Shown: positions 41,136 through 45,404 of the stretch, piece after piece
How positions within the stretch are numbered: the stretch's first letter is position 1
How the letters are laid out: every line of letters starts with the position of its first letter
NCBI RefSeq assembly: GCF_023703775.1
Contig: NZ_CP098514.1
Span: forward strand, 1,922,001-1,986,000
Direction: 5' to 3'
DNA length: 64,000 nucleotides
Source: Haloplanus sp. GDY1
Lineage (GTDB): Archaea > Halobacteriota > Halobacteria > Halobacteriales > Haloferacaceae
Translations under genes and position numbers: made by a program
Notes under the pieces: generated by a model
What the model saw: the letters and a program-made list of their open reading frames with translations, nothing else
Told to the model about the DNA's origin: nothing
The model's database searches: none

Positions 41136-42182
41136 ATGACCTCCGGGATCGTGTTACTCAACTTCGGTGAGCCGTCAGAGGGGCGTAGGGACGAGGTGCT
41201 CGACTATCTGGAGCGCATCTTCCTGGCGAACATGTCCATCGAGGGGGAGACGACCGAGGCGGCGGCCCGGGAGCGCGCCCGGGAACTCGCCGAGCGGCGC
41301 GCGCCCGGCCTCATGGCCGAGTACGACGACATCGGCGGCTCCCCGCTGATCGATCACGCCACCACGCAGGCGACGCTGCTCGACGAGGAACTGGCCCGCC
41401 GGGGGTACGACGTCGAGACCTATCACGGGATGCAGTACACGGCTCCCTTCATCACCGACGCGGTGGAGGCGGCCCGCGAGGACGGCGTTGATCACCTGAT
41501 CGGGCTCCCGATCTACCCGCTCTGTGGCCCCTCGACGACCGTCCAGTCGCTCGACGAACTCGACGAGGCGCTCGCCGAGGTGGGGTGGGACGTCCCCGTC
41601 GACGCCCTGACCGGCTGGCACAGACACCCCGGCTACACCCGGGCCCGCGTCGACAACCTCCGTCGCTACCTCGACGGCAACGACCTCTCGCTCGGGGACG
41701 GCACCCGCCTCGTCTTCTCCGCACACGGCACGCCCCAGTACTACCTCGACGAGGGGAGCCGGTACGAGGAGTACGTCGAGGAGTTCTGTTCGGTGGTGGC
41801 GACCGCGCTCGACGCGCCCGACTACGAACTCGGCTACCAGAACCACGAGAACCGCGACGTCGAGTGGACCGCCCCCGACGTGGAGGAAGTCGTCGAGACG
41901 GTGGACGCCGACCGGATCGTCGTCGAACCGGTGAGCTTCATGCACGAACAGAGCGAGACGCTGTCGGAACTCGACATCGAACTCCGCGAGGAGGCCGAGG
42001 AGCGCGGCCTGGAGTTCCACCGCGTCCCCATCCCCTACGACGACGAGCGGTTCGTCGGCGCGCTCGCGGACCTGGTCGAGCCGTTCGTCGCCGGCTACGA
42101 TCCGGAGTACGCCGGCCTCCACCCGTGTGAGTGCCGTGACGAACCGGGGACGATGTGTCTCAACGCCCCCCACGAGGCATGA
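41136..42182 (+). CDS. hemH: Ferrochelatase (probably coproporphyrin ferrochelatase)
   Basis: A 348-residue chelatase with the two-domain fold: MTSGIVLLNFGEPS at the N-terminus, catalytic His in LVFSAHGTPQYYL and the second site EPVSFMHEQSETLSEL. The C-terminus holds a Cys-rich tail (HPCECRDEPGTMCLNAP) that could bind an iron-sulfur cluster as in some ferrochelatases. With hemG and hemE next door and no radical-SAM heme genes visible, a coproporphyrin-dependent route is likely, which would make it CpfC. TATA-like TTTTGTATC at 41104-41112. Overlaps hemG by 4 bp. Confidence 0.9.
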   Translation: MTSGIVLLNFGEPSEGRRDEVLDYLERIFLANMSIEGETTEAAARERARELAERRAPGLMAEYDDIGGSPLIDHATTQATLLDEELARRGYDVETYHGMQYTAPFITDAVEAAREDGVDHLIGLPIYPLCGPSTTVQSLDELDEALAEVGWDVPVDALTGWHRHPGYTRARVDNLRRYLDGNDLSLGDGTRLVFSAHGTPQYYLDEGSRYEEYVEEFCSVVATALDAPDYELGYQNHENRDVEWTAPDVEEVVETVDADRIVVEPVSFMHEQSETLSELDIELREEAEERGLEFHRVPIPYDDERFVGALADLVEPFVAGYDPEYAGLHPCECRDEPGTMCLNAPHEA

Positions 42183-43477
42183 CCGTCGGCATCGTCGGCG
42201 CCGGCATCACGGGGCTCGCCCTCGCACACTACTGTCGCGAGCGCGGCGTCGACGCGGTGGCCTTCGAGGCGTCGGCGGAACCGGGCGGCGTGATCCGGTC
42301 GACGCGGGTCGACGGGCGCGTCCTCGAACACGGTCCCCAGCGCACCCGCCTGACGCCCGAGATCGAGGGACTGGTCGCGGACTGTGACCTCGACGACGCC
42401 CTCCTGACCGCCGACACCGACCTCCCGCTGTACGTCTACGCCGACGGCCGCCTCCGGCGGGTGCCGTTCTCGCCGCGGGCGTTCCTGTCGACCGACCTGC
42501 TCTCGGCGCGGGGGAAACTCCGGATGCTCGCGGAGCCGTTGACCGACGGCGCCCGCGACGACGAGACGGCCGCCGACTACTTCGTCCGGAAGTTCGGCCG
42601 CGAGGCGTACCACAACCTCGTCGAACCCCTGTTCGGCGGCATCTACGGCTCCGACCCCGCCGAGATGCCCGGGAAGTACGCCCTGCGGACGATCCGCAAG
42701 ATGGAGCGCTCGGGCAGCCTCGTCCGGGCCGCCGTCAACCGACGGCTGGAGGGCAAGGAGCGCCAACCCCCCGTCTCCTTCGTCGAGGGCATGGCCCAGT
42801 TGCCGCGCGCGCTCTACGAACGCAACGCGGATCGGGTGGAACTGGAGACGCCGGTCGAGCGGGTGTCGGCCGACGGATCGGGCTACCGCCTCGACACCGC
42901 GGACGGGAGTCGGCGCGTCGAGCGCGTGGTCCTCACGACGCGGTCCGACGTCGCCGCGGGACTCCTGGCGGACGTCGACCCGGGGAGCGCCCGGGCGCTC
43001 CGCCGCCTCTACTACAACCCGCTCGCGTACGTCCACCTCGTCTCCGACGCCGAGCCCGACGGCTACGGCTACCAGGTGCGCCACGACGAACCGCTCCACA
43101 CGCTGGGGGTGACCTGGAACGCGAGCCTCTTCGACCGCGACGGCGTCTACACCTGCTTCCTCGGCGGCATGGAGAACCCCGGGCTGGTCGACCGCCCGGC
43201 GGACGAACTCGGGCGGATCGCTCGCGAGGAGTTCGAGGCGGTGCTTGGCGCGTCCGCCGAGGTGGTGAACGTCACGCGCCACCCGCGCGGCATCCCCGCC
43301 TACGACGGATCGTGGACGGCGATGGAAGACGTCGACACGCCCGAGGGCATCACGCTGGCGACGAACTACACGGGGCGGATGGGCGTCCCGGCGCGGATCC
43401 GGGAGGCGAAGCGACTGGCGGAGTCGTTCGCGGCCGACCGCGACGCCGCCGAACCCGTCGCCCATCGTAGCGATTGA
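42179..43477 (+). CDS. hemG: FAD-dependent coproporphyrinogen/protoporphyrinogen oxidase
   Basis: A 432-residue HemY-type flavoprotein: dinucleotide motif GIVGAGITGLALAHYCRERG, the second FAD contact ASAEPGGVIRST and the conserved C-terminal site ITLATNYTGRMGVPARIREAK. Mid-protein LVEPLFGGIYGSDPAEM is typical of the family. In Gram-positive bacteria this type oxidises coproporphyrinogen III (CgoX). ATG at 42179 overlaps the hemH stop. The last four residues (HRSD) and stop lie inside palindromic element A. Confidence 0.9.
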   Translation: MTVGIVGAGITGLALAHYCRERGVDAVAFEASAEPGGVIRSTRVDGRVLEHGPQRTRLTPEIEGLVADCDLDDALLTADTDLPLYVYADGRLRRVPFSPRAFLSTDLLSARGKLRMLAEPLTDGARDDETAADYFVRKFGREAYHNLVEPLFGGIYGSDPAEMPGKYALRTIRKMERSGSLVRAAVNRRLEGKERQPPVSFVEGMAQLPRALYERNADRVELETPVERVSADGSGYRLDTADGSRRVERVVLTTRSDVAAGLLADVDPGSARALRRLYYNPLAYVHLVSDAEPDGYGYQVRHDEPLHTLGVTWNASLFDRDGVYTCFLGGMENPGLVDRPADELGRIAREEFEAVLGASAEVVNVTRHPRGIPAYDGSWTAMEDVDTPEGITLATNYTGRMGVPARIREAKRLAESFAADRDAAEPVAHRSD

Positions 43478-43542
43478 AAGTCATTGCACAGCAAATCGGA
43501 CGCTGTACTGCGATTGGATGTGTAATCCGTTTCAATCGCTAC
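43467..43542. repeat. Palindromic element, copy A, between convergent hemG and hemE
   Basis: A 76-bp palindrome: outer arms GTAGCGATTGAAA and TTTCAATCGCTAC pair over 13 bp. An inner stem (AATCG with CGATT, flanked by CACA with TGTG) and a small loop lie between. It closely matches copy B at 44984. The arms encode the last Ser and Asp plus the stop codon of hemG on the plus strand and of hemE on the minus strand. Its position in convergent gaps suggests a two-way transcription terminator; a mobile miniature element is another possibility. Confidence 0.8.
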
Positions 43543-44551
43543 TATCGCGCTCCACCGACTTCGCCGTCTCGACGAACGCCCGCACGGACTCGACGGGGGT
43601 GTCGCGGTCGACGCCGTGGCCGAGGTTGAGGATGTGCCCCCGCGGCCCCGCGGCGTCGATGACCGCCTCGGTTCGCTCGCGGACGAACTCGGGCGAGCCG
43701 AAGAGATGCTGCGGGTCGAGGTTGCCCTGCACCGGCCGGTCACCGAGTGCCGCCCGGGCTTCGGCCATGTCGACGGTCCAGTCGAGGCCGACCACGTCGG
43801 CCCCCGTCGCGTCGAGGCTGTCGAGGCGGCCGGCCATGTTGCGGACGAAGACGATGGAGGGCACCGAGAGGTCCGAGAGGATCTCGCGGTGGAGCGGCAG
43901 GACGAACTCCCGGTAATCGGCGGGGGAGAGCACGCCGGCGTAGGTGTCGAACAGTTGCACCACGTCGGCGCCGTGGGCGGCCTGATACTCCAGATACTCC
44001 CGCACCACGTCCGCGAAGGCCGAGAGGAGGGTTCGGAAGGCCTCGGGGTGGCGGGCGCGGAACCGGCGCACGGGGCCGTGGTTGCGCGAGGTGCCGCCGG
44101 CGACGGCGTAGGAGGCGAGCGTGAAGGGGCCGCCGGCGAAGCCGATGATCGCGGTTTCGTCGCCGACCCGCTCGACCAGGTTGTCGAGGAGCGACCCGAC
44201 GAAATCGAGGTCCTCGGCCACCGACCCGCGGGGTCGCTCGGCGTCGGCGGGCCCCTCGACCGGGTTCTCGACGACCGGCCCGACGCCGCTCTCGAGGTGG
44301 TAGTCGAACCCCAGCGGTTCGAGCACCGTCAAAATGTCCGAGAACATCACCACCCCGTCGGGCTCGTAGAGGTCCCACGGCAGGAGGGTGATGCGCGTGG
44401 CGACCTCTGGGGTCTCGATGGCCTCGCGAAACCCGTAGTCCGCGCGGATCTCGCGATATTCGGGGATGTGCCGCCCGGCCTGCCGCATCAGCCAGACCGG
44501 CGGCCGCTCGGTCCGTTCGCCGCGTGCCGCGCGGACGAGGAGGTGGCTCAT
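43532..44551 (-). CDS. hemE: Uroporphyrinogen decarboxylase
   Basis: A 339-residue enzyme that converts uroporphyrinogen III to coproporphyrinogen III. Signatures: PPVWLMRQAGRHIPEYRE, VMFSDILTVLEPLG with its catalytic Asp, GFAGGPFTLASY, QLFDTYAGVLSP and the final HILNLGHGVDRDTPVESVRAF. Length matches the family. It converges on hemG, with stop codon and last residues (Ser-Ser-Asp) lying in palindromic element A. Confidence 0.95.
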   Translation of the reverse strand: MSHLLVRAARGERTERPPVWLMRQAGRHIPEYREIRADYGFREAIETPEVATRITLLPWDLYEPDGVVMFSDILTVLEPLGFDYHLESGVGPVVENPVEGPADAERPRGSVAEDLDFVGSLLDNLVERVGDETAIIGFAGGPFTLASYAVAGGTSRNHGPVRRFRARHPEAFRTLLSAFADVVREYLEYQAAHGADVVQLFDTYAGVLSPADYREFVLPLHREILSDLSVPSIVFVRNMAGRLDSLDATGADVVGLDWTVDMAEARAALGDRPVQGNLDPQHLFGSPEFVRERTEAVIDAAGPRGHILNLGHGVDRDTPVESVRAFVETAKSVERDSSD

Positions 44552-44603
44552 GTCCGACGGTTGGACCGGAGTGGGCTAAGGATGTCGCATCGGCCCGGCC
44601 GAC

Positions 44604-44610
44604 AGTATAT
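44604..44610 (+). promoter_or_regulatory. TATA box of the 119-residue membrane protein gene
   Basis: AGTATAT at 44604-44610 lies 25-31 bp before the ATG at 44635, the spacing for leaderless transcription. It supports the long start for the next gene. The divergent hemE promoter must lie in the same 83-bp gap. Confidence 0.5.
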
Positions 44611-44634
44611 GTGTCTGCGCCCCGTACCGCGCCC

Positions 44635-44994
44635 ATGACATCTACCGCAATTAATCGTGAACGTTCCTCCGGGCTCGACGTCACCCTGCTCGGCCTCATC
44701 GCCACCATCGTCGGTGGATACGGTCGCAACATCTCGGTCCCGCCCGACACGTCACCCCACCTCATTCGATTCTTTTCGGTGTCGCCGGATCGGACGTACC
44801 CAGGGGTGATGCCACAGGACAAGGCGCTGCTCCTGTTGAACGACCCCGCGGCCGGCGAGGCGACACGGCAGGCGACCGCCGGCGGCGGCTCGCTCTACGG
44901 CCTCTGGACGCTCGTCGCCGCCGTCGGCTTGCTACTCCTGGTCGCCGGCCCGGCCATCGCCTGGAAGAACCGCGGCGACGGTCGTAGCGATTGA
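44635..44994 (+). CDS. 119-residue membrane protein, unknown
   Basis: The frame from ATG 44635 has a first hydrophobic part (LDVTLLGLIATIVGGYG), a middle segment of non-acidic composition (SPHLIRFFSVSPDRTYPG) and a C-terminal part PQDKALLLLNDPAAGEATRQ followed by a helix (LYGLWTLVAAVGLLLLVAG). The last 61 residues alone, from ATG 44809 with an AGGGGTG just upstream, look like a complete small protein, so two starts are possible. The end (GRSD-stop) lies inside palindromic element B. Family not recognised. Confidence 0.6.
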   Translation: MTSTAINRERSSGLDVTLLGLIATIVGGYGRNISVPPDTSPHLIRFFSVSPDRTYPGVMPQDKALLLLNDPAAGEATRQATAGGGSLYGLWTLVAAVGLLLLVAGPAIAWKNRGDGRSD

Positions 44995-45058
44995 AGGCCA
45001 TGCACCTCCGATCGCAGGACGGCGTCCGATCGGACGTGTGACCCGTTTCAATCGCTGC
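44984..45058. repeat. Palindromic element, copy B
   Basis: A 75-bp palindrome matching copy A: arms GTAGCGATTGAA and TTTCAATCGCTGC, inner stem CCGATC with GATCGG flanked by CAC with GTG. Relative to copy A the inner stem has changed on both sides so that pairing is kept, which indicates selection for the folded form. It again provides Ser-Asp-stop to both flanking convergent genes (ends at 44994 and 45048). Confidence 0.8.
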
Positions 45059-45404
45059 GATTACCCTCCGGCCCCTCCTCCGCGACCCACTCCTTCGCCC
45101 AGTCGCCGATGGCGTCGAACACCGGACAGAGCGACTCCCCTTTCTCGGTCAGCGAGTAGTACGTCGCCACCGGCGCGTCCTCCTCCAGCCGCCGGTCGAC
45201 GAACCCCATCTCCTGCAGGTCGTCGACGACCCGCGAGAGCGTCCGGGAACTCGCGCCGGTCGAGCGCTTGAGTTCGTTGAACCGCTTCTCGCCGCCCTGC
45301 AGGTCGTGCAGGACCGCGAGTCGCCACTGCGACCCGATCTGTTCGAGCGAGTCGATGACGTAACAGGTCTCCTCGTCGTTGCCCTCGCCCGCTTGTATCG
45401 CCAT
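45048..45404 (-). CDS. HxlR-family winged-helix transcriptional regulator
   Basis: A 118-residue HxlR/DUF24 protein: conserved Cys near the N-terminus (ETCYVIDSLEQIG), then a winged helix with SQWRLAVLHDLQGGEKRFNELKR and SSRTLSRVVDDLQEMGFV, and the wing TYYSLTEKGESL. HxlR regulators sense redox or electrophile stress through that Cys and bind as dimers to palindromes. It is divergent from doxX, whose upstream region has repeated GGTGACACC motifs. Its end lies in palindromic element B. Confidence 0.9.
   Translation of the reverse strand: MAIQAGEGNDEETCYVIDSLEQIGSQWRLAVLHDLQGGEKRFNELKRSTGASSRTLSRVVDDLQEMGFVDRRLEEDAPVATYYSLTEKGESLCPVFDAIGDWAKEWVAEEGPEGNRSD

Follow-up and report, generated by a model that had tools for sequence, protein, structure and literature searches.

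Among the closest described systems is RUP of Streptococcus pneumoniae, a MITE (miniature inverted-repeat transposable element) linked to IS630-Spn1 (PMC2229807). Like the element analyzed here, RUP is about 100 bp long and non-coding, carries IS630-like repeats and has a TA target; however, its host belongs to another domain, it has not been described at shared stops of convergent genes, and the two are likened by description, not by sequence. A preference of IS630 for TA in CTAG is stated in the title of Tenzen and Ohtsubo 1991, as it appears in PMC2170065. In haloarchaea, the MITEs, SMRs, and PATEs of Haloquadratum are likewise small mobile repeats without a transposase, and the MITEs are reported to outlive theirs (PMC3119063, the main text of which does not mention IS630). 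SMRs and PATEs differ from our element in having no target duplication, and PATEs are IS605-related. GTAG-tagged REPs resemble it in being palindromic, often lying near gene ends and providing TAG stops with their termini (PMC3733652), but they carry GTAG at a single end, are 20–40 bp long, are linked to RAYT and are listed from bacteria. Finally, the haloarchaeal IS630 elements ISNpe3 and ISNma7 share with the element the tip TATAGTA, a C beside TATA at many ends and about 50% identity in the inner repeat (positions 9–32), whereas they are about 1.06 kb long with a transposase and have the outer repeat CCGTTAGAA/GACATTAGAA in place of GCGATTGAAA.

In the 64-kb window, by which we mean the whole stretch of Haloplanus sp. 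GDY1 DNA that was analyzed, a preliminary description had reported two palindromic copies, at 43467–43542 and 44984–45058. Both are present there, and the features of the two loci are as follows.

42155–43477, plus strand: protoporphyrinogen oxidase gene (hemG of the preliminary description), matching NCBIfam TIGR00562 above cut-off; the protein ends in AHRSD, its last residues derived from the element
43463–43546: copy A, the 80-bp probable MITE with both remnants of the TA duplication (CA on the left, TC on the right); model match E 1.9e-21
43465–43481, plus strand: left terminal inverted repeat of copy A, encoding the final residues of hemG and its TGA stop
43528–43544, minus strand: right terminal inverted repeat of copy A, encoding the final residues of hemE and its TGA stop
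43532–44551, minus strand: hemE, uroporphyrinogen decarboxylase (NCBIfam), ending in KSVER+DSSD; the last four residues are derived from the element
44638–44994, plus strand: gene of a 118-aa protein ending in NRGD+GRSD
44980–45062: copy B, a probable MITE of the family of copy A with the decayed ends GGTC...GATT, between the 118-aa and HxlR genes; model match E 2.1e-19
45048–45404, minus strand: HxlR-family regulator (Pfam), ending in EEGPEG+NRSD

The small protein, first given as 119 residues, has 118 aa counted from its ATG and matches no family in NCBIfam or Pfam. Within the 64-kb window the arms AGCGATTGAA occur at four positions only, all of them in copies A and B. These copies were also the sole window matches of a covariance model built from seven copies, A and B themselves included (next best E = 0.13), and the window outside them scores at chance level. 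The intact form of the element is TATAGTAGC...GCTACTATA, 84 bases with TA at both ends; the element proper is 80 bp, non-coding and a near-complete inverted repeat (TAGTAGC...GCTACTA), imperfect because columns 18, 20, and 21 are mostly conserved mismatches. It had no match in Rfam up to E = 1 and none in a phage search. A loose scan of the whole genome collection for the arm pattern returned unrelated taxa among the matches listed, and these were taken as chance.

We consider it very probable that copies A and B are old copies of a haloarchaeal MITE that targets CTAG, duplicates TA and depends on an IS630-type transposase acting in trans. One reading offered before was a domesticated miniature transposon. 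Dispersed copies, the TA duplication, the CTAG target, IS630-like ends and near-identical recent copies support the transposon; domestication found no such support. The statement that no such haloarchaeal element had been described holds, in the papers searched, for the exact family, but the kind is known from RUP and other IS630-type MITEs: the family itself is new, the class is not.

The preliminary description had proposed searching the genome and its relatives with a covariance model, and would have been refuted by a lack of further copies; this search found them. The genome itself has 17 places with E <= 1, of which the weakest scores E = 1.3e-4. Of 60 related genomes, 18 give matches, some of them from other genera and families of the order; matching congeners have 2–74 strand-hits each. 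The congener G004 holds more than 20 nearly identical copies spread over unrelated sites, a sign of recent mobility. Plasmids carry related copies as well: they are present in 17 haloarchaeal plasmid records, and a single Haloferax mediterranei plasmid accounts for ten places. The arms fall into the subfamilies GCGATTGAAA, GCAACTGAAA, GCGTTTGTAA, and GCGTCTGCAA.

Some individual copies are unusual. Between two in the GDY1 genome (L003 and L008), the orientation of the central loop relative to the asymmetric GTCA/CTGT arms is reversed, as would result from a flip of the core between the arms. Two copies of G004 (L176 and L182) have near-identical flanks at different places and may reflect duplication of a larger unit. 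A 111-bp element in G012 (L160, 1501–1611) has the same ends around an unrelated core and may derive from an autonomous element by internal deletion.

Target-site duplications had been named as a test of mobility, and a duplication of TA was indeed found from empty sites. In the 80 copies whose ends are intact, 82% of flanks have C adjoining TATA, and in 55 of these copies C and G are both in place, as for a CTAG target. Three pairs of filled and empty sites (L275/L174, L192/L229, and L301/L190) align without gaps over one TA or a substituted form of it. Taken together, the flanking C and G and the gap-free empty sites indicate that the target is CTAG and that TA is duplicated. We rejected TATA as the duplicated target, since fusions over a single TA already align to the empty sites without gaps. 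The TA ends of the window copies have decayed, and their own duplication is visible only via the family and the empty sites.

The ends of the element resemble those of IS630. Several IS630 types with PF13358 are present in G004, where type 1 has the ends TATAGTA...TACTATA, flanked by C and G; similar tips are found in ISNpe3, ISNma7, and their relatives on plasmids. At arm positions 9–32, mean identity to the IS right ends was 50%, which none of 1000 shuffles equalled. Against the best-matching IS ends, the same positions, which lie beyond the 8-base tip, gave means of 46–50%, with at most 1 in 1000 shuffles as good, and when right and left IS630 ends were both compared with the MITE arms, 0–9 of 1000 shuffles reached the observed value. 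A search of the IS630 loci of relatives and plasmids yielded no intact IS630 that has the exact GCGATTGAAA arm. Five MITE-bearing genomes (G007, G008, G035, G041, and G057) gave no PF13358 match at E <= 0.01, so these genomes either have no partner transposase, have lost it or carry a divergent one. The partner acting in trans is therefore a putative one.

Two IS630 loci lie close to copies of the element. In the GDY1 genome, a decayed IS630 remnant (L215, G000:C2, about 147066–147479), with PF13358 interrupted by an internal TAG, lies about 3 kb from the copy at C2:150054. On plasmid pNMAG02 of Natrialba magadii (L358, about 740–1900), ISNma7 apparently sits inside a MITE copy, with a MITE-like end outside each IS end.

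To understand the position of the copies at gene ends, the abundance of the target has to be considered. In 464 kb of this genome (L337–L356 and the window) there are 76 CTAGs, a 16-fold depletion relative to the 1257 that base composition predicts; a Markov estimate predicts 363. Of 68 CTAGs tested, 19 (28%) are overlapping TAG stops common to a convergent pair, compared with 0–2 of 300 for six other tetramers. With coding direction and frame read from codon-position GC, not from annotation, the target TAG lies in the frame of a stop in 73 of 89 flanks that read as coding toward a copy, and 22 of 27 convergent pairs have the expected stop frame on both sides.

These numbers indicate how the gene ends very probably arose. 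An IS630-type transposase (Tc1/mariner superfamily, DDE), supplied in trans, would move the MITE by cut and paste. Strong avoidance of CTAG would leave many of the remaining CTAGs as overlapping TAG stops of convergent pairs, and insertion at such a shared site would destroy both stops. Each arm would then read TAT-AGT-AGC-GAT-TGA in frame, so that each protein would be extended by four residues, ancestrally YSSD, before a new stop. On this mechanism, the Ser-Asp-stop at the four neighbours would follow from where the element inserts and what its arms encode.

The genes at the two loci fit this series of steps. All four flanking ORFs finish with AGC-GAT-TGA, which bears out the earlier statement that the arm supplies Ser, Asp, and the stop, and all four C-termini can be derived from TAT-AGT-AGC-GAT-TGA with decayed first codons. 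The element was also correctly said to terminate both reading frames, and insertion into overlapping TAG stops accounts for this. HemE ends in KSVERDSSD here and in KSVER in the congener G008. The small protein ends in NRGD-GRSD here, compared with NRGD in G002 and NRAD in G006, both with a TAG stop. In eight congeners hemG and hemE are convergent without the element. Their junction in G008 reads GCC-TAG / CGC-TAG, with one CTAG holding both stops; the junctions of other congeners are different and short, and those of the closer congeners are without CTAG. Judged from the sequences, the G008 junction would best represent the ancestral state of the site. The site of copy B is empty in four congeners, and the empty site of G001 has no TA. 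At the window sites, several empty sites of congeners have the stops of both genes on or beside CTAG.

A MITE origin also leaves room for later use by the host. We regard as tentative the idea that the subfamily with an early TGA (GATTGA) was selected for shared stops, its hairpin perhaps separating convergent transcripts. Across all genomes, 21 of 60 copies with an arm stop within five codons lie at shared stops, against 1 of 81 without (Fisher 2e-8), a comparison between subfamilies that differ in local GC and perhaps in age and within which copies are not independent. In G001, 5 of 10 early-stop copies lie at shared stops, against 0 of 13 late-stop copies (p = 0.007) and a CTAG background of 7 of 121 (p = 0.0005). 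On the other hand, the early-stop copies of the GDY1 genome lie at shared stops in 6 of 13 cases, which is indistinguishable from the 19 of 68 of its CTAG background (p = 0.21); no special role is therefore needed for their placement in this genome. Early-stop copies of the AACTGA type also argue against such selection, with 0 of 15 at shared stops in G041 and G057. The excess may reflect adaptation or targeting, purging of harmful late-stop insertions, or age. At least some insertions at shared stops look recent, since an intact copy at such a site in G007 (L239) is identical to others in that genome. It is equally tentative that the GATTGA subfamily is a stop-restoring MITE, with repeats shaped to give an in-frame TGA after four codons and a hairpin that is maybe a two-way insulator. 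If this is true, shared CTAG stops would be safe havens for its insertion.

A dispersed bidirectional terminator, whose hairpin on either strand ends both convergent transcripts and is kept by selection, appears improbable. Both window copies are in convergent position, and each folds strongly on both strands (z about −4 to −4.6 vs shuffled sequence). Hairpins are able to end transcription in Haloferax volcanii, where one ended 59% of transcripts in a reporter (PMC7237163). The inner stems, as reported earlier, differ in sequence yet pair. In a set of 35 sequences, 23 stem pairs had changed on both sides, whereas shuffles averaged 8.5 and reached at most 15; this count is confounded by common ancestry within subfamilies. 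However, such covariation is expected anyway if one transposase binds both ends or if palindromes correct themselves, and its cause could lie in selection on the DNA ends, in palindrome correction or in hairpin function. The element has no T-tract, congeners keep the same gene pairs without it, and its placement in the GDY1 genome does not differ from that of the available CTAG sites. Moreover, none of the 23 recent G004 copies examined was classed in a convergent gene pair. The element may affect the transcripts of its neighbours; of a purpose-built terminator we found no sign, and the pattern does not need one.

An element related to IS200/IS605 (PATE) or a GTAG-tagged REP, moved by a Y1/RAYT transposase, is very unlikely: the palindrome, the GTAG start, the stop codons supplied as by GTAG REPs, and the presence of PATEs in haloarchaea would fit, but PATEs have neither terminal inverted repeats nor a target duplication while our element has both, and in place of an unpaired GTAG at one end of a short hairpin it has GTAG...CTAC at both ends, paired, over 84 bp with TA, so that we rejected membership of either group.

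Read as a CTAG-targeting MITE, the element would reduce a puzzling pattern to a simple rule, in which few CTAGs are left and many of these are overlapping stops. It represents a mobile family, common in haloarchaea, that alters the C-terminal ends of proteins encoded by hemE and other genes, and would offer a testable case of transposon ends repairing the very stop codon broken by their insertion.
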